Part shown: positions 13,136-25,179 of the stretch, one piece after another
Numbering within the stretch: the stretch's first letter is position 1
How the letters are laid out: the number at the start of each line of letters is the position of its first letter
From: Hyphomonas polymorpha PS728
GTDB lineage: Bacteria > Pseudomonadota > Alphaproteobacteria > Caulobacterales > Hyphomonadaceae
Length of the DNA stretch: 64,000 nucleotides
Direction: 5' to 3'
NCBI RefSeq assembly: GCF_000685315.1
Contig: NZ_ARYM01000006.1
Location: 122,989-186,988 of the forward strand
The notes under the pieces: model-generated
Database searches by the model: none
Told to the model about the DNA's origin: nothing
Seen by the model: only the letters and a program-made list of their open reading frames with translations
Program-made: the position numbers and the translations under genes

Positions 13136-14347
13136 TTATCCGAGGGCGAGAGTGTTGAGCTGCATGATGGGCAGCATGATCGACAGGACGATCGTGCCGA
13201 CCACGCCGCCCAGGAAAATGATGATCAGAGGTTCGAGCAGGCCGAGGGCAACATTGGTGGCCGTTTCGAATTCGTCTTCCAGAAAATCGGCGGCGCGGTT
13301 CATCATCGCGGGGACGTTGCGGGCCGCTTCGCCGCTGGCAACCATGTGGACCATCATCTGGGGGAAAACCCCCGTGGACTTCATGGCCGAAGAGAGGGCG
13401 CCGCCACGCTGGACGGTTTCGAGGATCTGATCGGCGGCGTCCCGAAACACCAAATTCCCCATGGCGTTTCGCGCGCCCGAGAGGCTTTCGAGGACGGTGG
13501 CGCCAGCGCCGGACATGGTAGCATGGATGCGGGCGAAGCGAGCCGAGGCAACTTTCCGGTTCATGTCGCCGAAAAAAGGAATACGCAGGACAAAGCCGTC
13601 CCAGCGGCGTTTCCAGGCCGGAATCTTCAGGACACGCAGCGCCAGGAACACGCCAAGCGCGGCCAGAGCCAGGACAACCAGGCCCCAATCGCGGACAAAT
13701 CCGGACAAGCCAATGACAAATGTGGTCAAAGGCGGCAGTTCTGACGCGCCCAGCATGGCAAATTGTTCGACAAGCTTGGGCACAACCCAGACCATCAGGG
13801 CCGTCACCATGGCAGTGGCCATGATGCCAAGGATGATCGGATAGATGAGCGCTGAGCGAACCAGGGTGCGCAGCCGGTAACTGCGCTCAAGGTGGTGGGC
13901 GAGCTGATCGAGGACGAGACCGAGACGGCCCGAGCTTTCGCCGGAGGAAACCACCGCCCGGAAGAGGGGCGGAAAGGCGCGCGGCGCGCCCCGCATGGCT
14001 TCGGCGAGGGTAGCGCCTTCCATAACCTGAGAGCGCACACCGAGGAGCAGGCCGCGCTGGGGCGAGGCATCGCTGTCGCCGGCCGCAGCCGTCAACGCCT
14101 GTTCGACCGTCATGCCGGACGAGACGAGCACGGCGAGCTGGCGCGTCAGAAGCGTGCGTTCCTTGTCGCTGAGGCGGCCGGCACCTGCGAAACCGGCGGC
14201 TTTCTCACCGCGCGCCTCTGTGAGCGAGACGGGGGTGAGCTGGCGGTTACGCAACTCGCGGCGGGCGGCGCGGGCGGTATCAGCTGAGATGACGCCGCTG
14301 GTGCGCCGCCCGTCAGCCGTCAGAGCCTTGTATTCAAATGCTGCCAC
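13136..14347 (-). CDS. gspF: Type II secretion inner-membrane protein F
   Basis: A 403-residue polytopic platform protein with two T2SSF cytoplasmic domains and three membrane segments. The N-terminus AAFEYKALTADGRRTSGVI is typical, as are the RQLAVLVSSGMTVEQAL and GEASGR-like (SSGESSGRLG) motifs. The start is a GTG at 14347 with GGGAGG upstream, and it overlaps the gspE end by 14 bases. Confidence 0.96.
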   Translation of the reverse strand: MAAFEYKALTADGRRTSGVISADTARAARRELRNRQLTPVSLTEARGEKAAGFAGAGRLSDKERTLLTRQLAVLVSSGMTVEQALTAAAGDSDASPQRGLLLGVRSQVMEGATLAEAMRGAPRAFPPLFRAVVSSGESSGRLGLVLDQLAHHLERSYRLRTLVRSALIYPIILGIMATAMVTALMVWVVPKLVEQFAMLGASELPPLTTFVIGLSGFVRDWGLVVLALAALGVFLALRVLKIPAWKRRWDGFVLRIPFFGDMNRKVASARFARIHATMSGAGATVLESLSGARNAMGNLVFRDAADQILETVQRGGALSSAMKSTGVFPQMMVHMVASGEAARNVPAMMNRAADFLEDEFETATNVALGLLEPLIIIFLGGVVGTIVLSIMLPIMQLNTLALG

Positions 14348-15824
14348 CGAACCAGGCCTCCCGGCGGCAGACGTGGAGCAGTTCCTCGGCGCTCGAGTCG
14401 CCGCTCAGCACATGCCGCAAACCGTTCTGAAACAGCATATCAGATTTCGCGAAAGCTGCGCGCTCAATCTCTTCTTCGGTGGCGCCGTCATGGATCATCC
14501 GGCGGATGGGGGCGTCGATCAGCAGCAACTCGTATACGCCCAAGCGGCCCTCATAGCCGGTATGGCCGCAGGCAGCGCAGCCGGTCGGCCGATAGAGCGT
14601 GAGATCGGTTCTGCCAGCGAGGCCAAGACGTTCCAGCAGGGCAGGCGGCGGTGAATAGGCTTCCTTGCAATGCACACAGAGCTTCCGGACGAGGCGTTGA
14701 GCCAGCACGGCGCGCAGCGTGGAGGCGAGCAGGAAACTCTCCACACCCATGTCCCGCAGACGGGTGATGGCGCCCGCAGAGCTGTTTGTGTGGATGGTGG
14801 ACAGGGCAAGGCGGCCTGTGAGCGCAAATTCGAGTGCGACCTCTGCGGTCTCCACATCCCGTATCTCGCCGACCATGACGATGTTGGGGTCGTTCCGGAG
14901 GATCGAGCGCAGGGTGGCGGCGAAGGTGAGGCCGACCTTATGGTCCATCGGCGTCTGGCTGATGCCATCGAGACCATACTCCACGGGATCTTCCAGCGTC
15001 ATGATGTTGACGCGCCCGGTGTTGAGCTGGGCAAGGGCGGAATAGAGCGTGGTGGTTTTGCCTGAACCCGTCGGGCCGGTGACGAGGATCACGCCATTGG
15101 GTTCACTGAGGGCGGCGCGGAAGCGGCGTTCGGTGTCCTCGTCCATGCCGAGGGTTTCCAGGCCCATGAGGGCTTGGCGCGTATCGAGCAGGCGCAGGGC
15201 AACACGCTCGCCATAGCGCGTGGGTAGCGTAGCCACCCGGACATCCAGCGCGCGGCCGCCCAGCGTCAGCGAGATGCGCCCATCTTGGGGCATACGCTTT
15301 TCGGCAATATCCAGCCGGCTCATCACCTTGATGCGCGAGACGAGTGGGGCCGAAACGCGCCGGGACGCCGTGAACACTTCCTGCAACTCGCCGTCGATGC
15401 GGTAGCGGACCGAGAGTTTGTCCTCAAAGGGATCAATGTGAATGTCGGACGCCCGGCGGCGGATGGCATCCTGCAGCAGGCCGTTGATCAGGCTGATAAT
15501 CGGAGCGTCTGTATCGCCTGCAAGCAGATCTTCCGTTTGCGGAAGACCATCAAACAGGCTTTCGAGATCCCCGCCAGTGCCAGCGGCGGCCTCGGCGGCG
15601 CTGCCATCAAGGCGCGACTGGCCGAAGCTTTCCGAGAGCTGGCGCTCATACTGCGCGGCATTCATCGCTTCCAGATGCACCGGCAGGCCGGCAACGCGGC
15701 GGGCCTCCACTAGGGCGACTGGATCGGCGCCTTCGCGGACAGCGAAAGTCGGCTCCGCGCGGCCGGGAACAACGACTATCCCCTTGTCGCGGGCAAATGC
15801 ATAAGTGACCTGAGCGCGTGTCAT
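14334..15824 (-). CDS. gspE: Type II secretion ATPase E
   Basis: A hexameric cytoplasmic ATPase of 496 residues that drives pseudopilus assembly. It has Walker A GPTGSGKTTT, Asp-box RASDIHIDPFEDKLSVRYRIDG, Walker B region MVGEIRDVETAE and the His-box LSTIHTNSSAGAITRL. The tetracysteine zinc element is CVHC and CAAC, 29 residues apart. The ATG at 15824 is used rather than an upstream in-frame codon, because it lies just after the gspD stop and starts MTRAQVTYAF. Confidence 0.97.
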   Translation of the reverse strand: MTRAQVTYAFARDKGIVVVPGRAEPTFAVREGADPVALVEARRVAGLPVHLEAMNAAQYERQLSESFGQSRLDGSAAEAAAGTGGDLESLFDGLPQTEDLLAGDTDAPIISLINGLLQDAIRRRASDIHIDPFEDKLSVRYRIDGELQEVFTASRRVSAPLVSRIKVMSRLDIAEKRMPQDGRISLTLGGRALDVRVATLPTRYGERVALRLLDTRQALMGLETLGMDEDTERRFRAALSEPNGVILVTGPTGSGKTTTLYSALAQLNTGRVNIMTLEDPVEYGLDGISQTPMDHKVGLTFAATLRSILRNDPNIVMVGEIRDVETAEVALEFALTGRLALSTIHTNSSAGAITRLRDMGVESFLLASTLRAVLAQRLVRKLCVHCKEAYSPPPALLERLGLAGRTDLTLYRPTGCAACGHTGYEGRLGVYELLLIDAPIRRMIHDGATEEEIERAAFAKSDMLFQNGLRHVLSGDSSAEELLHVCRREAWFGGSI

Positions 15825-15831
15825 GAGACAA

Positions 15832-17793
15832 TTATCGCGGCGTCTGGACCGCTTGGGAAGCCGGGCCACCAGTTCCGAGAACTTCCCGGACGAACTGGTC
15901 GACAGTTCCGCCGGGCCTCTGATCCCGCATCAGCTCTTCGGCCTGTACATAGAGATATTTCTGCTGGGTGACCGCTTGCGCATCCGCTTTGCTGCGAACG
16001 ATGGTGGGGCGAATGAAGACCATCAGGTTCCGGCGTGTCGCGGCCTTGCCTTCCGAGCGGAAGAGACGGCCCACAGCGGGAATGTCTCCCAGCACGGGGA
16101 CTTTCGTATCGCGCAGCGTATCAGTCTGCTCGACGAGACCGCCAAGGACGATGATTTCACCGTCATCTGCCAGAACGCTGGCGCGAATTTCGCGCTTGTC
16201 GAGAATGAGATCCGGCGTGACTGTGCCGACGCTGCCGAAGACGCTGGAGACTTCCTGGCGGATGTCGAGGCGGACGGTGTCATTCTCGCCAATGCGGGGC
16301 GTGACTTCGAGCTGGATACCGATGTCCTTGCGCTCCACCGTGCGGAAGGGGTTGGAATTGGCGTCTCCCAGAACCTGGCCCGTGGTGACCGGAATTTCTT
16401 GGCCGACGATGAGCGCGGATGTCGCATTGTTCAGCGTCATGCCGAAGGGGGTCGACAGGATGCGCGAGGATGTATCGTCCTGCACGGCATTGAGGATGAC
16501 GCCGAAGAGGTTGTCGCCGGATGTGCCGCCGAAACCGAGCGTGAGGCCCGAGGAGCCCGTCAGTGAGCTGATGGCTGCATCGCGGAAGGGGTTGGCGGAG
16601 GCGGGATCGGAGAAAGCGTCCGTAACGAGCGCGCCCGTCAGGGCAAGGAGGTTTGGCGCGGCGCGCGAGAAGTTTGTCGAGGCGAAAGGAACATCTCCGC
16701 CTGTCCCGGAAAGCAGGAATTGCAGGCCAAGCTCACGCGCGGCATCATCCGACATTTCCACAATGATGGCTTCAACCATCACCTGCGGGCGGCGAACATC
16801 CAGCGCGGTGACCACCCGCTCCATGGCGAGTATTGTTTCGGGGTTTGCGCTGATAACGATGGAGTTGGTGGGGCCGTGATGGGCGATCGTCTGAGAAACG
16901 GGGGCCGTTTCTGCCGGTGACCGCTGCATGGCCATGCTGTTGGCCACGCGCTCCAGTATCGGAACGACTTCGGCCGCGTCGGCGTAGTTCAGTGTGATGA
17001 CGCGGACATGATCGCGCTGCGGATTGGTGGCGTCGAGTTCGAGTGCAACGCGTTTGGCGCGGTCGACGGAGGTGGCGTCGCCCCTCAGGATAATGGAGTT
17101 GCTTGTGAGGGAGGCAACGGCAGAGAGGCGATTGATGGTCTGACCGCCCTGGCCGCCGGCGTCCCCCTGGAGACGTGTAAGGACGGTTTCCATTTCAGCG
17201 GCCGGAACATTTGCCAGCGGAATGGTTTCGGTGACGGTCTGGTCGCGATCCACGGTTTCAATGATGCGGCGGACGCGCTCTAGATTAGAGGCATAGTCAA
17301 CAACAACGAGTGTGTTCGTGGCCGTATTGGCAACAACCTGGCCCTGCGAGTCGAGCAGCGGCTTGATCATCTGCGCGGTTTCCATCGCGTTCGCGCGGTT
17401 CAGCTTGATGACTTCGGTGATGAACGCGTTGGCGCCGGGCCCCGACATTGGCGCTTCGGTGGACGCGATGGCGCGCGGCACGATGCGGTAAGTGTCCTTA
17501 CCGGCGGGGACAGCGGCGAAGCCCTGGATGCGCAGCGTTGTCAGGAACACCTGGAAGAGTTCCTGGGTGGACATTGGCGTTTGCGAGACGACGGATACGC
17601 GCGCCTTGCGGACATCCGGATGCGTGACGAATGTGTATCCTGTCAGCATGGAGATGTCTTCGATCAGCGTATTCAGCTCGACATCTTCAAGGTTCAGGAC
17701 GTGCTTGTCCTGAGAGGGAGCAGGTGCCTGGGCGGCCGCAAACTGAGTGGCGGTGAGCGCAGCCGCAGCCGCGAGCAATATACGTTTGGTCAT
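15832..17793 (-). CDS. gspD: Type II secretion secretin D
   Basis: A 653-residue outer-membrane secretin with signal peptide MTKRILLAAAAALTATQFAAAQ. The N0 domain begins at VLNLEDVELNTLIEDIS, several N1-N3 KH-like repeats follow, and the C-terminal secretin core has ILSTPFGMTLNNATSALIVG and VERKDIGIQLEVTPRIG. The short C-terminus (about 40 residues after the core) shows no recognised pilotin-binding S-domain. Its start overlaps the gspC stop by 4 bases. Confidence 0.97.
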   Translation of the reverse strand: MTKRILLAAAAALTATQFAAAQAPAPSQDKHVLNLEDVELNTLIEDISMLTGYTFVTHPDVRKARVSVVSQTPMSTQELFQVFLTTLRIQGFAAVPAGKDTYRIVPRAIASTEAPMSGPGANAFITEVIKLNRANAMETAQMIKPLLDSQGQVVANTATNTLVVVDYASNLERVRRIIETVDRDQTVTETIPLANVPAAEMETVLTRLQGDAGGQGGQTINRLSAVASLTSNSIILRGDATSVDRAKRVALELDATNPQRDHVRVITLNYADAAEVVPILERVANSMAMQRSPAETAPVSQTIAHHGPTNSIVISANPETILAMERVVTALDVRRPQVMVEAIIVEMSDDAARELGLQFLLSGTGGDVPFASTNFSRAAPNLLALTGALVTDAFSDPASANPFRDAAISSLTGSSGLTLGFGGTSGDNLFGVILNAVQDDTSSRILSTPFGMTLNNATSALIVGQEIPVTTGQVLGDANSNPFRTVERKDIGIQLEVTPRIGENDTVRLDIRQEVSSVFGSVGTVTPDLILDKREIRASVLADDGEIIVLGGLVEQTDTLRDTKVPVLGDIPAVGRLFRSEGKAATRRNLMVFIRPTIVRSKADAQAVTQQKYLYVQAEELMRDQRPGGTVDQFVREVLGTGGPASQAVQTPR

Positions 17794-18674
17794 TGAGAAA
17801 GGCCGGAATCGGGGGAAAGCCGTAGGCGGACGATGGCGCCGTTGCGAACAACATCCAGCGCGATTGATTGAGAACTCATCACTGCAGACTGGATCGCCTC
17901 GGGGCCCATGCCCTCAATGCTGGCGCCATTGACGCGCAGGACCAAATCGCCCGCTTCAAGCCCGGCCGACTGGAAGTGTCCCTGACCGCGCGGGGAGAGG
18001 CGGTAGCCGGCCACGGCGCCGTTGCGCAGTTCCGGGTGCATCTCCACGTCTGTCAGCAGCAGCGCAGGGGTGACCGGCGCCAGGCTTGAGCCAGCGGGAG
18101 GCGCAGAGGATGTTGGCGGCGCCGGTTGAGCCGGCTGGATGCTGACAGACGTAGCGCTGGACGATGATGACGAGCCGGCAAACAGCGGCTTGTCCGGGTC
18201 GTTCAGGAGAAGTTCCTGAAGCTGGCCATTGAAGCGCAAGAACACCCGGTCTGCCGCGACCGTTTCCAAGACGGCGCCCGAAACGATCTGATCACCGATG
18301 GAAAAACGCTTCTGGGTGTTGTCGGGCAGGATAAGCACGGCGCTGCTGGTCCAGGCGGCACCGTCTGACCAGCGCAGGCCGGCGATCTTCAGGTTGAGGG
18401 AGGTGGGGACGGCGATCTGGCTGGGCTCGGCAGCGCTCGGGCGGAAGGGGTCTGTCTGGGTCAGCAGGGCGAGCGAGGATTGGTTGCCCGCTGCGCCTGA
18501 GACGGCAGGGATCTGGGGAAGAGCGCTCGCGCCGTCACCCGGCGCAGCGATGAGCCAGGCGAAACGGGCCAGCAGAAGCCCGGTCGTGAGCGCAAGGGCA
18601 GCTTCAATGGCGGTACGGCCGATCAAACTATACGCTGCCAGCCGAGTGCCGCCTTCCGGTCCGAACAGTTTCAT
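17790..18674 (-). CDS. gspC: Type II secretion protein C
   Basis: A 294-residue inner-membrane protein linking the platform to the secretin. It has one N-terminal membrane helix (AALALTTGLLLARFAWLIAA), a homology region (ILPDNTQKRFSIGDQIVSGAVLETV), a Pro/Ser-rich linker and a C-terminal PDZ domain (GLEAGDLVLRVNGASIEGMG). It is the first gene of the operon, with ribosome site GGAG 10-13 bases before the ATG. A PhoB-box-like promoter lies upstream. Confidence 0.93.
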   Translation of the reverse strand: MKLFGPEGGTRLAAYSLIGRTAIEAALALTTGLLLARFAWLIAAPGDGASALPQIPAVSGAAGNQSSLALLTQTDPFRPSAAEPSQIAVPTSLNLKIAGLRWSDGAAWTSSAVLILPDNTQKRFSIGDQIVSGAVLETVAADRVFLRFNGQLQELLLNDPDKPLFAGSSSSSSATSVSIQPAQPAPPTSSAPPAGSSLAPVTPALLLTDVEMHPELRNGAVAGYRLSPRGQGHFQSAGLEAGDLVLRVNGASIEGMGPEAIQSAVMSSQSIALDVVRNGAIVRLRLSPDSGLSQ

Positions 18675-18693: not shown

Positions 18694-18727
18694 AATACAG
18701 AGCTTCTTAATCACACTCTTGCGACAG
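18694..18727 (-). promoter_or_regulatory. Candidate PhoB-box promoter of the gsp operon
   Basis: On the minus strand the 18-mer CTGTCGCAAGAGTGTGAT (18727-18710) matches the direct-repeat pattern CTGTCAT-N4-CTGTCAT at 10 of 14 positions. Exactly 10 bases later comes TGTATT (18699-18694), a possible -10. This spacing is the one known for PhoB-activated promoters. The match was judged by eye. Confidence 0.45.
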
Positions 18728-18833
18728 TTCTGAGACGAACCCCAGCCCGAATGCACTGGTTATCAACAGATCGAGCTTAGAATTGTATCCGGTTTTCCGT
18801 AGCTCGAAAGACTTCTGATTTCACCAAGAATAT

Positions 18834-18868
18834 GAGGCGCAGCAGGGGTTTATTGCCTGCTGCGCCTC
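18834..18868 (-). terminator. Hairpin terminator after the TonB receptor gene
   Basis: A perfect 13-bp stem (GAGGCGCAGCAGG and its complement) with a 9-base loop lies 44-78 bases past the receptor stop. It separates the receptor unit from the gsp operon. The tract after it on the minus strand is ATATTCTTGG, only moderately T-rich. Confidence 0.7.
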
Positions 18869-18911
18869 GAATTTCACCCGGCTTCTCCGGTGGCACGAAA
18901 ATTAACCAGAG

Positions 18912-21563
18912 TTAGAACGCCGCGCTGAGGCCAACGGACAGGGTTGTGCCGACATCATACTGGTTAACCCGGACATAGCCGTCATTACCGGTCTGATATT
19001 CTTCGAAATCCTCCTTGAGGAGGTTTTTCGCCTTGATATCGAGCGTGAAGGCTTTACCGCGAAGGTCGAAGCCTTTCTTGTAGACGAGGTCGAGGTTGAT
19101 GCCCGGATCCTGCAGGAAGTCAGGCTGGCCCGCCGGCGCGCGGGCGGTGACCCGCTCGCTGGCATAGTTGGCAAGAAGGGTCAGCTGCGAACGGGCAGCC
19201 TCATCTTCCCAGCCGATCTGCAGGTTGGCGATATGCTCGGACTGGCCCTGAAGACGCGTGCCATCGATGATGAAGTCCGTGGCGGGACGGGGCTGACCAC
19301 CGGCCTGCAGCGGATACACCACGTCTCCGGAACCGGCCTTCACCTCGGATGTGGTGTAGGTGTAGTTGGCCTGCACCAGGAATTCCTTCGAGTCGAAGAA
19401 GGCTCCCTTGATGGGGCTGTCGAAGACGCGTTTGAAGTCGATCTCGGCGCCGTAGAGAATGGCTTCAGGCGCGTTGAGGTAAGTCTGGAACACCGAGGCG
19501 CTCTGCTGGACCACAACGGCTTCCACCGGACGGTCGAGCTGTTTGAAGAAGACGCCAGCAGTCACGGCCTGGCCGCGGTCGAAATACAATTCGTACCGGG
19601 CGTCGAGGTTCAGTATCTCCGTATCCGTCAGATAGGGATTGCCGATGAACGTCCGGCCGCTTTCCGGGTCGTAATACTGCTGGGGCGCAAGTTCGCGGAA
19701 CTGCGGGCGGCCGATGCTCTTGGAAGCTCCCAGACGAAGCTGCTGATCCTCGGCGAAGTTCCAGGTCAGCGTTGCGGCTGGCAGCAGGTACTGGTTTTCC
19801 AGTTCCGGCGGCGCTTCTGGCGCAGTTTCCGAAGCGATCAGCGAGAGCGGCGTTACCGACTGGGTTGCGTCCTCGAAACGGACGCCCACAGCGGTGCGAA
19901 CCAGAGGGATGATTTCCGCGTCAACCTTCGCATAGGCACCGAAGACCTTTAGGTCTGCGTCATACGCGGCCGCACCCGAAGAGCCAGTGATTTCGCGCAG
20001 GACAAAGAGGTCAGGATTGATGTTGTAGTTGGCGAACAGGAAGTCCGGGCGCTGTTGCGACACGAGGAAATCCAGCGGCGGATTACCCACGATGAAGCTG
20101 AAGATGCGCGACTGGGCGCTCCGATCATTCTGATAGGCTTCAACGCCCGCAGAGTATTCGATGTCGCGGGCCGAAGAGAGCGACTGTACGTATTTCACAT
20201 CGGCGCCACCGCTCACGACCTTGTCGTCGAGATAGGAGAAGGTCGTGCTGTTCGACGAGCCCGAACCCGAAGGATCGTAGATGTAGCTGTTGGTGATTTC
20301 GCTGAATATGAAGCGTGTGGCCCGCTCATACGGAGCATCGCGCTTTGTCTGGGAAAGTGCAGCTCTCCAGTCGAGAGTCCAAGGGCCACGATAGTGGTCG
20401 CCGTTGATCTGGGTGCTGTAGAGTTCACGGGCATACCAACCCGTGCGGTCATCCCGCACATCGCGCGAGGCCAGATCGTCGTATCCTTCGCGGATGCTCG
20501 TCTGTTTCGTGGTGCGGCGGATGTACAGATTGGTCCAGTTGAACTTGTCATCGCCAAAATCAAGACCGACGCCGAAAAGGCCGTCCCAGCCGATGTTCTG
20601 TTCCGTGGTCAGATAATCATAGGTCGAGGTGGCGCTGAGAATGCCACCATTGATCTCGCCGACTTCCTGCCGGCCATTACGCGTGCGCCAGTCATTGCTG
20701 TAGCCCAGGACGCCGATGATGCCGAGTTCAGCGCCACCGAGGTCGAAGGACGTTCCAGCGGATGCTTCATAGCTGCCGTTCATCGGTATGCTATCGTTCG
20801 TCTGGATGAGGTTGATGGGCGCGTTGGTGAACGCCTGCCCCATGGCTTGCAGCTCCGCATCGGTGAAGTTGTTGTTCTGGATCCGATTGCCAGTAGCCAT
20901 TGCCTGGCGCACCAGGCCGGGGATCTTGCGTGTGCCATCGTCGAAACCGAGCACATCGCTGTCGGCACCATAGTGGGTGATGCCGTCTTTGCCCGTCGTT
21001 TCGGTGTTGTAGCTACCCGATACGCTGAGTTCGAGGAAGCGTTCCTTAGGGATGTTCAGCGTGCGAAGATCAACGATGCCGCCGCCGAATTCACCCGGAT
21101 ATTCAACCGAGTAGGTTTTCTGGACAAGGACGTTTTCGAGAATGTTTGTGGGGAAGAGATCGAGCGGAACAACGCGCTGGAGCGGTTCCGGGCTTGGAAG
21201 GGGCGAGCCGTTAAGGCGGGCAGCAGAATAGCGCTCACCCAGACCTCGGACATACACGAAACGGCCTTCGGCAATCGTGATACCGGTGACGCGGGCCAGA
21301 GCAGAGGCGGCGTCGGAGTCGCCCTGGCGCGCGAGATCCTCCGGCGCGAGGAAAGCGGCGACTTCAGAAGTGCTGCGCAGCACTTCTGGAATATAACGGC
21401 CAAGAACAACAACTTCCTGAAGCTGGAGATCCTGAGCTTCGGGTGCTGCCGCCTCAGGGGACGTATCGGAAGTGTTTTCAGTTTGAGCCGAAGCGAAGGC
21501 GGGCGCAAGGATCGCTGTCGAAGCGATCAGCAGGGTCCGGAGGGACAGCGAGCTGAATTTCAT
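18912..21563 (-). CDS. TonB-dependent outer-membrane receptor
   Basis: An 883-residue receptor. Signal peptide to about residue 26 (ASTAILAPAFASAQ), a TonB-box-like LQEVVVLG at about 48, then the plug domain (RVTGITIAEGRFVYVRGLGERYSAARLNG). A barrel of about 650 residues ends in a terminal phenylalanine (LSVGLSAAF). Receptors of this class take up scarce ligands using TonB energy; the ligand is not deducible. It lies downstream of the surface lipoprotein gene on the same strand, with a hairpin between them, and just upstream of the gsp operon. A joint role with secretion is likely. Confidence 0.92.
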   Translation of the reverse strand: MKFSSLSLRTLLIASTAILAPAFASAQTENTSDTSPEAAAPEAQDLQLQEVVVLGRYIPEVLRSTSEVAAFLAPEDLARQGDSDAASALARVTGITIAEGRFVYVRGLGERYSAARLNGSPLPSPEPLQRVVPLDLFPTNILENVLVQKTYSVEYPGEFGGGIVDLRTLNIPKERFLELSVSGSYNTETTGKDGITHYGADSDVLGFDDGTRKIPGLVRQAMATGNRIQNNNFTDAELQAMGQAFTNAPINLIQTNDSIPMNGSYEASAGTSFDLGGAELGIIGVLGYSNDWRTRNGRQEVGEINGGILSATSTYDYLTTEQNIGWDGLFGVGLDFGDDKFNWTNLYIRRTTKQTSIREGYDDLASRDVRDDRTGWYARELYSTQINGDHYRGPWTLDWRAALSQTKRDAPYERATRFIFSEITNSYIYDPSGSGSSNSTTFSYLDDKVVSGGADVKYVQSLSSARDIEYSAGVEAYQNDRSAQSRIFSFIVGNPPLDFLVSQQRPDFLFANYNINPDLFVLREITGSSGAAAYDADLKVFGAYAKVDAEIIPLVRTAVGVRFEDATQSVTPLSLIASETAPEAPPELENQYLLPAATLTWNFAEDQQLRLGASKSIGRPQFRELAPQQYYDPESGRTFIGNPYLTDTEILNLDARYELYFDRGQAVTAGVFFKQLDRPVEAVVVQQSASVFQTYLNAPEAILYGAEIDFKRVFDSPIKGAFFDSKEFLVQANYTYTTSEVKAGSGDVVYPLQAGGQPRPATDFIIDGTRLQGQSEHIANLQIGWEDEAARSQLTLLANYASERVTARAPAGQPDFLQDPGINLDLVYKKGFDLRGKAFTLDIKAKNLLKEDFEEYQTGNDGYVRVNQYDVGTTLSVGLSAAF

Positions 21564-21601
21564 GAGATAAGATCCTGAATGGATGCTTGAGATGAGAAGA
21601 A

Positions 21602-21628
21602 ACGGAGGCCTCTTTGCGAGGCCTCCGT
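21602..21628 (-). terminator. Hairpin between the lipoprotein and receptor genes
   Basis: An 11-bp perfect stem (ACGGAGGCCTC and its complement) with a 5-base loop lies 14 bases past the lipoprotein stop. On the minus strand TTTCTTCTC follows, as in an intrinsic terminator. It would let the lipoprotein be made in excess over the receptor through partial read-through. Confidence 0.75.
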
Positions 21629-21641
21629 CTTGGTCATGGTG

Positions 21642-23210
21642 TTAGTGGCAGGTCGGCTGACCCGGCAGGCTGCAGGTCCAGCCTTCGTACCAGTTGTCGC
21701 TGGCATCGCGCACGGCGCCGACATAGTCGACCGGCGTGAGGAAGCCCGTGATGAATGTGTTGTTCGTGCCCAGACCAACCCCGGCGTTCAGGGAGGTGGG
21801 GAAGGTGGACGCGGTCACCGCATTCTCATTGGCGCCGTTGATGAACCCGCCAGTGAGCGTTGAGGTGCCGTTGAGCACGTTCGTGGGGTGGGTCAGCAGA
21901 GTTTCTACGGTTGCATCGGGGATATCGGTCGCCGGCGTGGTGCCAGCCGCGCCGCCATCACCATTGCCACCGGCGCAGGAGAAGAAGACCGAGCGATAGA
22001 GCGGACCGTTGCCCTCAACACCGTTAGGGTTGTTCAGCGTTGCGTTGGTGGCGATGTTCACGCACTGATGGTTACCCGGATGGCGGATGACCGTGTTGTA
22101 AACGCGCGCCGTGTGGCCAGTATTGTGGACAACGGCGTCCCGCGTGCTGTTTTCACGCATGACGATTGTCCAGTTGGAGTAGGTCGGGCGGGTGAAGAAA
22201 TCAGCGGTGTTGGTGCCGCGCGAACTGGTTTCCCACGCAAAGTCTCCACCCCCGGAACGCTGATACACGATACCGAACTGAGCCGCACCGCGCCAGCCAG
22301 AGTCGGTGTCGAAGGAGTCATCATCATTGCCGGTAAGCACGATGTAGCGGATGTTCACGTTCCCGCCGAAGATCTCGATACCGTCATCCGAGCTGTTGTG
22401 AACCTGGACGTACTCAAACGTCGTACCATTACCGACGCCGGCGAGGGTAATGCCGTTGAGTTCGTTGTTCGGCGCGATTTCAAAGCCGGAATAGGAGAGG
22501 CGGAGATAGCGGATACGGCCGCTGTTGTCGGTCGGCGTGTTGCCGCCGTAAAAGGCGTCTGCGCCTTCCACCTGCGCCTCACAGGCGATGTTCGGCGGGG
22601 TCACGGCTCCGCAACCATCCGATGTCGGAGCACGGCCGAGGATCACGAGACCGCCCCACTGGCCGATCGAATTTTCGGTAGCGGTGCCTGCGATGTTGGC
22701 CCGGCTTGTCAAGATGATCGGATCATCGGCTTCGCCCTCAGCGAAGATCTGCGAACCCCGGTTCACGAGAAGGTAGTCGCCACCAGAGTTGCCGAAAATG
22801 GTCACGCCCGGCTCGATCGTCAGGATACCCGAGGTGCGGCCTGCAATCGGGCTGTTGGGGTCAGAGCCAAGGTCGGTGCCCACCTGGGTGCGGCCAGCGA
22901 CCGAGTAGATCGTGCCGTCGCGTTTGGGAACCACAAGGTTGCCTACGATTGTGCTTGGCAGCTGGCAGATACGTTTGTCGGAAATCGTGCCCACGTTCGA
23001 GAACTCGGCCGGGCAGTCGGCTGCCGGACCGCCTGTCGGCGTGGTCGGGGTGGTCGGCGTGGTGGGAGGGGTCGGTGCCGGCGCGGTAGGCGACGGAACG
23101 AAAGCGCCAACGCCAGGCGAGGCAACGCCATCAGCGCCGCTGCAGGCGCCGAGCAGCGCGACTGCAGCACAGCCGAGAAGCGCCGCGCGGAAGTTATTCT
23201 TGGTCAACAT
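21642..23210 (-). CDS. Surface lipoprotein with Pro/Thr linker and beta-helix-like domain
   Basis: A 522-residue protein with a lipoprotein signal (lipobox LGAC, Cys23). A low-complexity linker of about 30 residues (TPPTTPTTPTTPTGG) is followed by a large Gly/Asn-rich domain with right-handed beta-helix-like turns (GILTIEPGVTIFG, YVQVHNSSDDGIEIFGGNVNIRYIVLTGNDDDSFDTDSGWRG split by short loops). Acidic clusters such as NDDDSFDTDSG could bind calcium. Four or more cysteines occur in the mature domain. Genes of this type next to T2SS clusters are candidate secreted substrates; the Caulobacter ElpS lipoprotein is the comparison I recall, but homology was not tested. ATG 23210 has GGAGAC upstream. 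Confidence 0.85.
   Translation of the reverse strand: MLTKNNFRAALLGCAAVALLGACSGADGVASPGVGAFVPSPTAPAPTPPTTPTTPTTPTGGPAADCPAEFSNVGTISDKRICQLPSTIVGNLVVPKRDGTIYSVAGRTQVGTDLGSDPNSPIAGRTSGILTIEPGVTIFGNSGGDYLLVNRGSQIFAEGEADDPIILTSRANIAGTATENSIGQWGGLVILGRAPTSDGCGAVTPPNIACEAQVEGADAFYGGNTPTDNSGRIRYLRLSYSGFEIAPNNELNGITLAGVGNGTTFEYVQVHNSSDDGIEIFGGNVNIRYIVLTGNDDDSFDTDSGWRGAAQFGIVYQRSGGGDFAWETSSRGTNTADFFTRPTYSNWTIVMRENSTRDAVVHNTGHTARVYNTVIRHPGNHQCVNIATNATLNNPNGVEGNGPLYRSVFFSCAGGNGDGGAAGTTPATDIPDATVETLLTHPTNVLNGTSTLTGGFINGANENAVTASTFPTSLNAGVGLGTNNTFITGFLTPVDYVGAVRDASDNWYEGWTCSLPGQPTCH
23018..23076 (-). repeat. 9-bp tandem repeat coding for the Thr-Thr-Pro linker
   Basis: Within the lipoprotein gene an ACCACSCCG unit is repeated about three times with flanking degenerate copies, encoding TTP repeats. 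Because the unit is a multiple of three, slippage would lengthen or shorten the linker without a frameshift. Confidence 0.7.
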
Positions 23211-23330
23211 CAATGTCTCCGTCGTGAACCCTGAGCGGGCGCGCTGACGGTTTCCCCCGCCGCGCTCCCCAGACGCTAATTTGCCGTCTGCCCGCAGCGC
23301 GGAGCCTTAAGATTTGATTGCAACACTTAC

Positions 23331-23348
23331 GGGAAGTTTAGATGACAC
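23331..23348 (-). promoter_or_regulatory. Candidate PhoB half-box upstream of the surface lipoprotein
   Basis: The minus-strand 18-mer GTGTCATCTAAACTTCCC has a good first half-site (GTGTCAT) and a poor second one. It shares AAGTGTCATCT with the hydroxylase promoter. TGCAAT, 8 bases later, could be a -10. It is supported mainly by similarity to the hydroxylase site. Confidence 0.35.
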
Positions 23349-23368
23349 TTCCGTGAACTGCGTGCGCG

Positions 23369-23386
23369 GCGCCACGTGTGTGGCGC
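23369..23386 (-). terminator. Weak hairpin after the hydroxylase gene
   Basis: GCGCCAC and GTGGCGC form a 7-bp stem with a GTGT loop, 10-28 bases past the hydroxylase stop. No T-run follows, so it may be a Rho-dependent end or a pause site. Confidence 0.35.
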
Positions 23387-23396
23387 GCTGGCAACA

Positions 23397-24245
23397 TTAC
23401 ATATTTATGGAGTATTCGGCGGGGAACATCTCCCCCCAGCCACGCTCGCGAAACCATTTCGTGATGACGTATTTCACGCCCGAACGGACCTTCATGCCGT
23501 GGTGGATCGTGTACGGATTGACGCTTCCATCCGGATTCAGGTTGTTCCAAATAACGGCTTTGCCCTTTTCGGGCATGATGGTTTTCTCAAGCCTGCGGAA
23601 CCGGGTTCCGCCACCTTCTTCAACATCATTGAGATAGATCATGAACGTCCAGGTGCGTTGACCGGTGAACTGGCAGTGAACCTGATAGTCTCTGGTTCCC
23701 GGCAGGAAATAATCATAGTGTGCCTTGTATTCCTGTTCGACATCATACCGCTGCGTCTGGGTGGCATCGGAATAGGACCAGTGAACGCCGAGCGCTTCGG
23801 CGATGAGTTCGTCCAGTTGCATCACGAGATTGTTGCCAAGAGAACCGATGTCTGAAGAGCGCGAAGTGCGGACCTTCGGGTCTGCAAAAACATCTGTCGT
23901 TGTCGACGCACGCAGGCGTTCGTCTGTCAGGGCGATCAGCTGATCGCACGTCTCCGGCGCCAGGAAATTTGGCCAGACATAGAGCTGCGCCTTGGAAACA
24001 GGAACACGCCGGAGCAGGGGATGGTTCAGTGCGCGCCGGGTGAGGGGCGCATTGGAAAGGGCAGCATGGTCAACGTCGGAGATTGGGCGGCGGCCATCAT
24101 AAGCGTCGCGCATCAGCGCGCGTATGGTGGCCTCGTCAAACCCATTCTTGATGAGCAGGCGTTTGACCTCGTGCGGCTCCACACCGGTTCTCAGGCGAAC
24201 CCATGTGTAGGTCAGCCACTCATCGCTGATCGTCATGTTCGTCAT
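23397..24245 (-). CDS. Prolyl 4-hydroxylase-like 2-oxoglutarate/Fe(II) oxygenase
   Basis: A 282-residue cytoplasmic protein with no signal peptide. The N-terminal third (about 85 residues) is an unrecognised domain that includes RLLIKNGFDEATIRALMRDAY. The C-terminal two thirds match the P4Hc oxygenase fold: iron ligands HYD in YKAHYDYFLPG, the distal His in YTIHHGMKV and the 2-oxoglutarate-binding Lys in GVKYVITKWF, plus FMIYLNDVEEGGGTRF. The family hydroxylates proline or related residues in proteins using oxygen, iron and 2-oxoglutarate. The gene lies immediately upstream of the lipoprotein with the Pro/Thr linker, which makes that protein a candidate substrate (inference). Confidence 0.88.
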   Translation of the reverse strand: MTNMTISDEWLTYTWVRLRTGVEPHEVKRLLIKNGFDEATIRALMRDAYDGRRPISDVDHAALSNAPLTRRALNHPLLRRVPVSKAQLYVWPNFLAPETCDQLIALTDERLRASTTTDVFADPKVRTSRSSDIGSLGNNLVMQLDELIAEALGVHWSYSDATQTQRYDVEQEYKAHYDYFLPGTRDYQVHCQFTGQRTWTFMIYLNDVEEGGGTRFRRLEKTIMPEKGKAVIWNNLNPDGSVNPYTIHHGMKVRSGVKYVITKWFRERGWGEMFPAEYSINM

Positions 24246-24266
24246 CGCAGCACCATTCCTGTGGCG

Positions 24267-24300
24267 TGAATAGTGCAGGGATGTGACGATGAGATGACAC
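24267..24300 (-). promoter_or_regulatory. Candidate PhoB-box promoter of the hydroxylase gene
   Basis: The minus-strand 18-mer GTGTCATCTCATCGTCAC (24300-24283) resembles two CTGTCAT-type half-sites separated by 4 bases. TATTCA (24272-24267) follows after exactly 10 bases as a -10, and the start codon lies 21 bases further on. Layout and spacing fit a PhoB-activated promoter. Confidence 0.55.
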
Positions 24301-24363
24301 TTGAAAACAACGTAGGCTGATTAAAAACATACCTACACGGAATATACCATATTATGTATCTCA

Positions 24364-24392
24364 TTGACGCAAATATGTAAAATATGTATTGT
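24364..24392 (+). promoter_or_regulatory. Sigma-70-type promoter of the CAP-domain gene
   Basis: TTGACG (24364-24369), a 17-base spacer and TATTGT (24387-24392) form a near-consensus promoter. Transcription would begin at about 24399-24400, on or just before the proposed ATG, which points to a leaderless mRNA. The spacer holds two tandem copies of AAATATGTA. Confidence 0.6.
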
Positions 24393-24408
24393 GACAGTTA
24401 TGTTACAG
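24391..24408 (-). promoter_or_regulatory. PhoB-box-like 18-mer in the divergent promoter region
   Basis: The minus strand reads CTGTAACATAACTGTCAC: two close CTGTCAT-like half-sites with the AT-rich spacer ATAA. It is the best match to a Pho box in the locus. It points toward the hydroxylase gene 145 bases away and overlaps the start of the CAP-domain gene, where a bound protein would repress. Confidence 0.5.
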
Positions 24409-25179
24409 TTGAAATACAGAGCTTTGTCACTCCTCGCTCTGGCGATTGCGGCGCCAGGGGTGGCCCTTTCGGAAGCCGGTTCGCTGGCGCGTTTCTCCCC
24501 CGGAGAATCGAGCGGAATGACTTCTGCGGCAGACCGGTCGAATGTCAGTAAAGATCTCCTCGCGGCGATCGAGAGCGTCCGGCTGGATGCTGGTCTCGCG
24601 GGCTTCGCGGAGCATCAGAAACTGGCTCTCGTTGCCCAGGAGCATGCAAGGGACATGGCGCGCCGCCACTACGCAGCTGATGTCTCCCCGGAAGGGCGAA
24701 CGCTGCTTGATCATGTCCGCCAGGCTGACCGGCAGACGCTTTACAGCGCGTTCGGGACGGCGATCGCCATCGTTGACGCCGGCACCAGCGCGGACACGGT
24801 ACTGGCCGCGCTGATGTCGGATCCGTCCAACAAGGAAAACCTGCTGCGTTCAGGCTTCGATCATGTCGGGATCGGCGCGGTCGAGCAGGGTGGGCGGCTG
24901 TATGTTGTGCAGCTGCTGGCGCGGGTTGAAGGGCAGTTGCAGCGGCCGTTGCCTGTCAACTCGAGCGGCGCCGAGAGCCTGCGCGTGGATCTTGCTGCGC
25001 GCGGTATGACCCCGGTGAGCTGGTCGCTCAGCGACGGCGCGGGGACGACACTGCTTCGCGGCACAGGTGAGCGCATTCGCGATCCGCGCGGCACAGGAGC
25101 AGAAGGATACCTCAATCTCGATGTCGCGATGGGGCCGGACGTCTACACGCTTCGTGGACCGTATGTGCGTGTGAACTAG
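24400..25179 (+). CDS. Secreted CAP/SCP-domain protein
   Basis: A 259-residue exported protein. The signal peptide is KYRALSLLALAIAAPGVALS. The CAP domain (about residues 40-155) has LVAQEHARDMARRHYAADVSPEGRTLLDHVRQ; the HYAADVSPEG segment resembles the usual HfSHxxPdG motif of bacterial YkwD-like proteins. About 90 unrecognised residues follow. The function of bacterial CAP proteins is poorly known. The ATG at 24400 is chosen because the signal peptide begins there; no ribosome site is visible, in line with a leaderless transcript. Earlier in-frame TTG and GTG codons lie in the promoter. Confidence 0.75.
   Translation: MLQLKYRALSLLALAIAAPGVALSEAGSLARFSPGESSGMTSAADRSNVSKDLLAAIESVRLDAGLAGFAEHQKLALVAQEHARDMARRHYAADVSPEGRTLLDHVRQADRQTLYSAFGTAIAIVDAGTSADTVLAALMSDPSNKENLLRSGFDHVGIGAVEQGGRLYVVQLLARVEGQLQRPLPVNSSGAESLRVDLAARGMTPVSWSLSDGAGTTLLRGTGERIRDPRGTGAEGYLNLDVAMGPDVYTLRGPYVRVN

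Follow-up and report, generated by a model that had tools for sequence, protein, structure and literature searches.

Candidate PhoB-type promoters at a T2SS, lipoprotein and prolyl 4-hydroxylase locus of Hyphomonas

Known systems and the Hyphomonas locus

The closest described system is the T2SS-ElpS locus of Caulobacter crescentus (cc0170-cc0184). According to PMC11208175, the C. crescentus PhoB regulon includes the T2SS, and PMC2996285 reports that ElpS is induced by phosphate starvation, just as an earlier note on the DNA studied here had stated. In the latter work, Le Blastier et al. also described T2SS production as constitutive and cc0171 as independently regulated, and they had already listed Hyphomonas neptunium as having a lipoprotein-TonB receptor-gsp arrangement. 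Phosphate and PhoB control of the T2SS and ElpS is therefore already published for Caulobacter and is not new. The term "pho box" is missing from the main text of PMC2996285, and "hydroxylase" and "oxygenase" are missing from the main texts of both PMC2996285 and PMC11208175 on the Caulobacter locus.

We analyzed a 64,000-nucleotide stretch of Hyphomonas polymorpha PS728 (the window), in which the order lipoprotein, TonB receptor, gspC and onward is the same as in C. crescentus. On the minus strand, gspC (17790..18674, PF11356) opens the T2SS operon and is followed by gspD (15832-17793) and gspE (14334-15869). The same strand carries the genes of a TonB-dependent receptor (18912..21563; PF00593, PF07715), a surface-type lipoprotein (21642..23213, ATG at 23210) and a prolyl 4-hydroxylase-like 2OG-Fe(II) oxygenase (23397..24245, PF13640). 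PhoB-type promoters before gspC, the lipoprotein gene and the hydroxylase gene are strongly supported by the sequence analysis below. What appears to be new is a prolyl 4-hydroxylase in a putative Pho unit, its presence tracking a Pro-rich lipoprotein tether.

A weight matrix from pst and phoX promoters

PhoB is encoded in the genome (TIGR02154, 353.6 bits against a cut-off of 296.2), inside a pst operon that itself carries a strong box. The PhoB weight matrix was seeded with the generic Pho box and trained on Hyphomonas pstC, pstS and phoX promoters only. Training on pstC and pstS drew on 30 loci each, among the matches listed; one pstS locus with an unresolved start (L054) and nine further pstS stretches were left out of the matrix, and 12 of the 24 phoX loci (L154-L165) went unscored because of truncation or greater divergence. 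PF12849 detects pstS in the genus; a TIGR00975 search for it returned 0/41.

The earlier note had pointed out four 18-mers resembling tandem CTGTCAT half-sites. All four are real and no chance matches; they lie on the minus strand, at 18710-18727 (gspC), 23331-23348 (lipoprotein), 24283-24300 (hydroxylase) and 24391-24408 (the fourth site), and the matrix ranked them 9, 11, 3 and 1, respectively, among the 127,966 positions of the window. When 400 kb of the same genome was added (927,286 positions), the ranks were 27, 41, 7 and 3, with the genome's own phoX box at 20. Three of the top four window matches lie in the gaps before the hydroxylase and gspC and in the CAP region, an outcome given by 0/400 column-permuted matrices. 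Likewise, 6 of the 14 window matches scoring at least 10 fall within 593 of the 127,966 positions, overlapping registers of one array not being independent matches.

Ranks shifted with the training set. Without pstS, the 18710-18727 gspC and 23331-23348 lipoprotein registers fell to 78 and 65, with the upstream registers at 2 and 17, respectively; without pstC, the gspC upstream register moved to 15, and without phoX the hydroxylase box moved to 10. Recovery of phoX was poor when phoX itself was left out, the median site score of 5.5 being reached by 40 window positions. With a generic CTGTCAT-N4-CTGTCAT matrix the fourth site alone stood out, at rank 1, with gspC and the hydroxylase both at 23 and the lipoprotein at 452, and a strict genome-wide search for TGTCRY-N5-TGTCRY gave eight places, none of them in the T2SS/lipoprotein locus, against three for a reversed-pattern control. 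The generic consensus gives strong support to the fourth site only; the case for Pho sites is built on the lineage-specific matrix and on conservation.

Direct-repeat arrays and their conservation

Conservation was followed across 14 Hyphomonas loci, comprising the window, L083-L093, L064 and L066 (L061, L063, L065 and L072 were left out as lying on contigs already included, and L062 came without upstream DNA). In 14/14, the gaps before the hydroxylase, lipoprotein and gspC genes hold direct-repeat half-sites at an 11-bp pitch, like the pst and phoX boxes of the lineage, and a -10 about 10 bp past the last half-site is conserved for the hydroxylase and the lipoprotein (14/14 each).

The hydroxylase box, GTGTCAT-CTCA-TCGTCAC (24283..24300, minus strand), scores 14.9 and is the third match in the window; GTCAT-N6-GTCA occurs at this promoter in all 14 loci. 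As first pointed out in the earlier note, TATTCA (24267..24272, minus strand) starts exactly 10 bases past the box, and its first two positions are TA in 14/14. For the lipoprotein, the site had been described as a single, weaker 18-mer; it is weaker by rank under both matrices, but it is really part of an array of four half-sites, AGTTCAC-GGAA-GTGTCAT-CTAA-ACTTCCC-GTAA-GTGTTGC (23320..23359, minus strand), present in 14/14 loci. This array scores 11.5, 10.7 or 7.4 depending on the register, the upstream register ranking 8 in the window, and its orthologues reach 22.4. Exactly 10 bp past the fourth half-site lies the -10 TAAGGC (23304..23309, minus strand), which reads TAAGG[CG] in every locus; the commonest -10 among the pstC training sites is TAAGGG.

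The gspC array (18710..18738, minus strand) has three half-sites at an 11-bp pitch, TCGTCTC-AGAA-CTGTCGC-AAGA-GTGTGAT, and is likewise present in 14/14 loci. It scores 15.7 in the upstream register (18721-18738; rank 2 in the window, 6 with the added 400 kb) and 11.4 at 18710-18727. The -10-like TGTATT (18694..18699, minus strand) does start exactly 10 bp after the array, but TGTAT[TC] at this distance is found in the window and L083 only and is missing from 12/14 loci. Since it is kept in so few, we treat the gspC site as a conserved Pho-type array and not as a demonstrated class II promoter.

Direct-repeat sites are common among OmpR-family regulators, and the gspC site can also be read as a near-palindrome, TCGCACAAGTGTGA, in 9/14 loci. 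Both points would fit another response regulator of this family binding the arrays through a similar 11-bp direct repeat, with a signal other than phosphate. We consider this improbable, as the matrix came from pst and phoX promoters only and the Caulobacter T2SS is assigned to the PhoB regulon (PMC11208175). ChvI was ruled out as the regulator because its putative Caulobacter motif, TTGC-N3-GCAA in PMC9731502, is different.

In seven Xanthomonadaceae loci, 12 of the 21 matches of at least 10 lay no more than 200 bp upstream of elpS, gspC or hyd, with 0.26 expected, and the hyd box scored at least 12 in 4/7 (5.6, 1.8 and 1.3 in the remaining three). The match-density test covered 13 loci, with L067 (short contig) and L080 (its contig as long as that of G011) left out.

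Given their resemblance to pst and phoX promoters and their retention in 14/14 loci, the arrays are likely targets of phosphorylated PhoB, which at low phosphate would raise the transcripts of the hydroxylase, the lipoprotein and gspC. The proposal that the whole locus is a Pho regulon unit, for these three promoters strongly supported in sequence terms by the pst/phoX controls and by conservation and in line with PhoB control of the Caulobacter T2SS, nevertheless went too far. The TonB receptor gene is boxless, the best score in the lipoprotein-receptor gap being at most 5.3 in 14/14 loci, and it sits behind a terminator-like hairpin with a T-rich tract (21598..21628, minus strand; read by eye), so that it may be fed by read-through or by its own promoter. 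The position of the fourth site, moreover, suggests repression of the CAP gene, and the -10 of gspC is not conserved.

The fourth box, the prolyl hydroxylase and the lipoprotein tether

The fourth and strongest box, CTGTAAC-ATAA-CTGTCAC (24391..24408, minus strand), scores 23.4 in the window, where it is the top match, and 14.6-24.3 across 14/14 loci. It overlaps both the start codon and the -10 of a divergent gene for a CAP (SCP) domain protein (24400..25179, plus strand; PF00188, with a signal-peptide-like N-terminus by eye). The CAP promoter is of sigma70 type, TTGACG-N17-TATTGT (24364..24392, plus strand), 7 nt before the ATG, and the transcript is predicted to be leaderless; TTGAC[AG] stands at an equal distance from the ATG in 14/14 loci, and the -10-like hexamer varies. 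The earlier note had placed this 18-mer in the region shared by the hydroxylase and CAP genes, but its position is fixed to CAP (relative to the -35, -10 and ATG in 14/14 loci) and not to the hydroxylase. A fixed-phase link to the hydroxylase box was ruled out, the spacing between the two ranging from 107 to 122 bp.

PhoB on this box would likely block the CAP promoter, and PMC10294691 indicates that PhoB can repress through site position. That the box instead activates, either the hydroxylase from a distance or CAP itself, is rather unlikely: it has the orientation of the hydroxylase promoter, activation is the best-known role of PhoB and a second, CAP-sense box covers the CAP -35 (13.6-18.3 in 11/14 loci; the window and L083 score 10.9 and L092 5.9), but 5 bp, not 10, separate this second box from the CAP -10, and the variable spacing speaks against action on the hydroxylase. 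We give little credence to the idea that the site is simply where CAP starts and is kept by coding and promoter constraints. It does overlap ATG TTA CA. and the sigma70-type -10, but codon 2 is TTA in 14/14 loci against 2/426 Leu codons elsewhere in these genes, and a post-hoc pattern made from the fourth and pst boxes has two mismatch-free places in 4.05 Mb, pst and the fourth site.

The best PDB matches of the hydroxylase are prolyl 4-hydroxylases (E about 5e-27). H176, D178, H248 and K258, an HxD...H plus Lys pattern, are invariant across 10 sequences; the first three are presumably the iron ligands and K258 the 2OG-binding Lys. The lipoprotein has a lipobox, a Pro/Thr-rich linker and a beta-helix-like body, and its lipobox and position beside the TonB receptor and gsp genes are those of an ElpS-type protein; the link to C. 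crescentus CC0170 rests on gene order and the Hyphomonas entry in PMC2996285. A search against PDB sequences gave no match at E <= 0.001 (best 0.96). Its AlphaFold model (mean pLDDT 82) is beta-helix-like, but the best Foldseek hit, at E = 0.016, missed the 0.001 threshold; therefore, no function was taken from the fold.

The presence of the hydroxylase tracks a Pro-rich, not Gly-rich, lipoprotein tether: such a tether occurs in 12/12 genomes with the hydroxylase and in 1/18 without a close orthologue, among the matches listed (the linker table holds 30 loci, among the matches listed for 56 genomes with a lipoprotein match). The tether is a candidate substrate, which the co-induced hydroxylase might modify before export, the weakest step of our proposal. 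The chances are evenly balanced that the enzyme acts on another target, for instance in the cytoplasm, and shares no more than its regulation with the lipoprotein. In favour of this, no signal peptide was seen by eye, and P4H relatives in five sphingomonad-type genomes (L214-L218) showed no upstream Pho box; the correlation with the Pro-rich linker speaks against it.

Taken as a whole, it is quite probable, judging from the genomic evidence, that PhoB activates the hydroxylase, lipoprotein and gspC genes at low phosphate; it would likely block CAP, and the hydroxylase may modify the tether. More tentatively, and with some doubt, this phosphate-starvation unit may produce a surface lipoprotein along with an enzyme for its own tether: the PhoB-induced P4H would hydroxylate the ElpS-type lipoprotein in its stalk, rich in (A/T/S/V)P or polyproline, with effects on stiffness, on glycosylation or on release by proteolysis, and PhoB on the start codon would at the same time shut the divergent leaderless CAP gene.

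These data would extend PhoB control of the T2SS/ElpS locus to Hyphomonas and partly to Xanthomonadaceae. Relative to PMC2996285 and PMC11208175, two parts are added to the unit, a prolyl 4-hydroxylase and a CAP gene apparently under opposite control, and a bacterial prolyl hydroxylase gains, in the lipoprotein tether, a concrete candidate substrate. Class II PhoB promoters of the pstS, phoA and pstC type share with Hyphomonas the 11-bp direct repeats and a -10 about 10 bp past the last half-site; in contrast to them, the Hyphomonas half-sites follow a genus variant, (C/T)TGTC(A/G)C, the lipoprotein promoter has four half-sites, and gspC has no conserved -10 at that distance. The bacterial collagen-type prolyl 4-hydroxylases of PDB 3itq, 5hv0 and 5iax, which we take to be Bacillus enzymes, are the best PDB matches of the Hyphomonas enzyme and have the same invariant HxD...H and Lys, whereas the latter lies in a T2SS/phosphate locus, beside a lipoprotein with a Pro-rich tether.

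A Pho box matrix for the genus

We trained a weight matrix exclusively on Hyphomonas promoters of pstC (30 loci), pstS (29), and phoX (12), seeding it with a generic Pho box and TA at the -10 and excluding the tested sites. The 38 unique training sites define a genus PhoB box of (C/T)TGTC(A/G)C half-sites at an 11-bp pitch. A hexamer beginning with TA lies 10 bp downstream in 30/30 pstC and 8/12 phoX sites; for most pstS sites, the fitted register lacks it. In the window's own genome (4.05 Mb), pstC carries TTGTCACATAACTGTCGC-N10-TATTTG, and the PhoB gene lies within the same pst operon. The background comprised the window and 20 stretches of this genome (927,286 positions), five of them chosen for pst, phoX, or pattern matches and 15 arbitrary. 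Here, the genome's pstC scored 26.8 (1st), pstS 20.8 (4th), and phoX 12.0 (20th). When held out, pstC was recovered well (1 window position reaching the median score), pstS fairly (9), and phoX poorly (40).

Upstream of pstS in L035, L044, L050-L052, L055, L058, and L060, no site scores better than TTTTCA[CT]GAAACCTTCTT, a weak variant similar to the CAT-N4-ACTTC pair of half-sites at the lipoprotein gene. Elsewhere in the window's genome (C18; L192, 5036-5053), a strong box, TTGTCACTAATCTGTCAC, with TAAGGC 10 bp later stands before the gene of a TonB-receptor-like protein of 1056 aa, which probably also belongs to the Pho regulon.

Pho-type boxes before hyd, the lipoprotein gene, and gspC

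The order CAP-domain gene (24400-25179, +), prolyl 4-hydroxylase-like gene hyd (23397-24245, -), lipoprotein gene (21642-23213, -), TonB-dependent receptor gene (18912-21563, -), gspC (17790-18674, -; start of the T2SS operon), and gspD is identical in 14/14 loci (the window and 13 from Hyphomonas). The earlier note had proposed PhoB-box-like promoters before gspC, hyd, and, more weakly, the lipoprotein gene, with a fourth site (24391-24408, -) between hyd and the divergent CAP gene. With the pst/phoX matrix, the fourth site scored 23.4 (3rd overall, 1st in the window) and the hyd box 14.9 (7th and 3rd). The gspC box scored 15.7 (6th and 2nd) one half-site upstream of the proposed register, which itself scored 11.4 (27th overall). 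The lipoprotein array gave 11.5 and 10.7 (8th and 11th in the window), its proposed register ranking 41st overall. On their sense strand, the four gaps make up 593 of the 127,966 window positions and hold six of the 14 window matches scoring at least 10; 0/400 column-permuted matrices placed three of their own top four in the three site-bearing gaps. With one family left out at a time, the fourth site stayed 1st and hyd ranked between 2nd and 10th; gspC and lipoprotein registers varied from 2nd to 82nd. Generic-consensus scoring singles out the fourth site alone.

The hyd gap retains GTCAT-N6-GTCA and TA at the -10 in 14/14 loci. At gspC, the three half-sites are kept in all 14, but TGTAT(T/C) as a -10 is present in just 2/14. 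The lipoprotein gap holds four half-sites, with TAAGG(C/G) exactly 10 bp past the last, in 14/14 loci; because the first two form a near-perfect box in several relatives (TTGTCACGTAACCGTCAT, 22.4), the apparent weakness of this site reflected a register one half-site off. The lipoprotein-receptor gap contains a terminator-like hairpin and no Pho-type score above 5.3 in the 14 loci (pst/phoX matrix). In other lineages, 12/21 matches of at least 10 in seven Xanthomonadaceae loci (expected 0.26) and 12/45 in six sphingomonad-type and other loci (expected 0.32) lie within 200 bp before elpS (the lipoprotein gene), gspC, or hyd, not all being independent because neighboring registers overlap. The hyd box reaches at least 12 in 4/7 Xanthomonadaceae loci.

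The fourth site and the start of the CAP gene

The CAP promoter reads TTGAC(A/G)-N17 followed by a -10-like hexamer whose end lies 7 nt upstream of the ATG, so that a leaderless transcript is predicted from sequence. The fourth site's position over this -10 and the ATG is fixed in 14/14 loci; the hyd box lies at a variable distance from it (107-122 bp). All 14 CAP genes have TTA as codon 2, a triplet that makes up 2/426 Leu codons elsewhere in these genes, and the DNA itself therefore appears constrained at this site. Depending on where it binds, PhoB is reported to activate or repress (PMC10294691), and we infer that it would repress CAP from the fourth site. In the aligned loci, a recurrent palindrome-like TACA-N6-TGTA (24345-24358; in L090, TACAGTATACTGTA) can be made out by eye in the stretch from the CAP -35 to the hyd box; its three matches in the window are not clearly above chance (11/100 shuffles reach three).

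The hydroxylase, the lipoprotein linker, and the Caulobacter locus

The best PDB matches of the hyd product are prolyl 4-hydroxylases (E about 5e-27), and the HxD...H/K residues are kept. Matches of any strength occur in 18/61 genomes and close orthologues (at least 71% identity) in 12/61, always adjoining the lipoprotein gene. Among the 30 genomes compared at the lipoprotein locus, all 12 with a close orthologue have 10-17 prolines in the linker that follows the lipobox, and 17/18 without one have 0-6 in a linker that is mostly Gly-rich, a pattern that follows clades and is therefore a correlation over few independent events. The exception, G030, has 18 linker prolines; the lipoprotein's neighbor is not assembled there because the contig begins with the second base of the match. 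Relatives at a distance of 31-37% identity are encoded by four of these 18; despite them, G043 and G044 have Gly-rich linkers, and those of G041 and G057 are intermediate. The seven Xanthomonadaceae loci combine hyd with Pro-rich linkers. Four Pro-rich loci have no hyd in the flank covered; three of these genomes encode a relative (46-47% identity), and the fourth, G067, has none. L079 has hyd but a short linker. The hyd product may hydroxylate the lipoprotein tether.

Twelve further genomes (L019-L030; ten of the genus, two from other families of the order) encode a form of this lipoprotein with two domains (923-982 aa as open frames), in which the linker is Gly-rich; these genomes lack a close hyd orthologue. 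In L066, a MAG, the lipoprotein frame is broken within the linker, through sequencing error or in reality.

Our literature search, as far as made, found no link of a prolyl hydroxylase to PhoB or ElpS, and "hydroxylase" and "oxygenase" are absent from the main texts of PMC2996285 and PMC11208175. The C. crescentus T2SS is reported to belong to the PhoB regulon (PMC11208175) and ElpS to be induced by phosphate starvation (PMC2996285); the latter source also describes T2SS production as constitutive and cc0171 as independently regulated. Le Blastier et al. give the C. crescentus order as lipoprotein (elpS, cc0170), receptor, gsp, and also list Hyphomonas neptunium (PMC2996285). The window shares this lipoprotein-receptor-gsp order, a likeness by gene order to the C. 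crescentus elpS locus.
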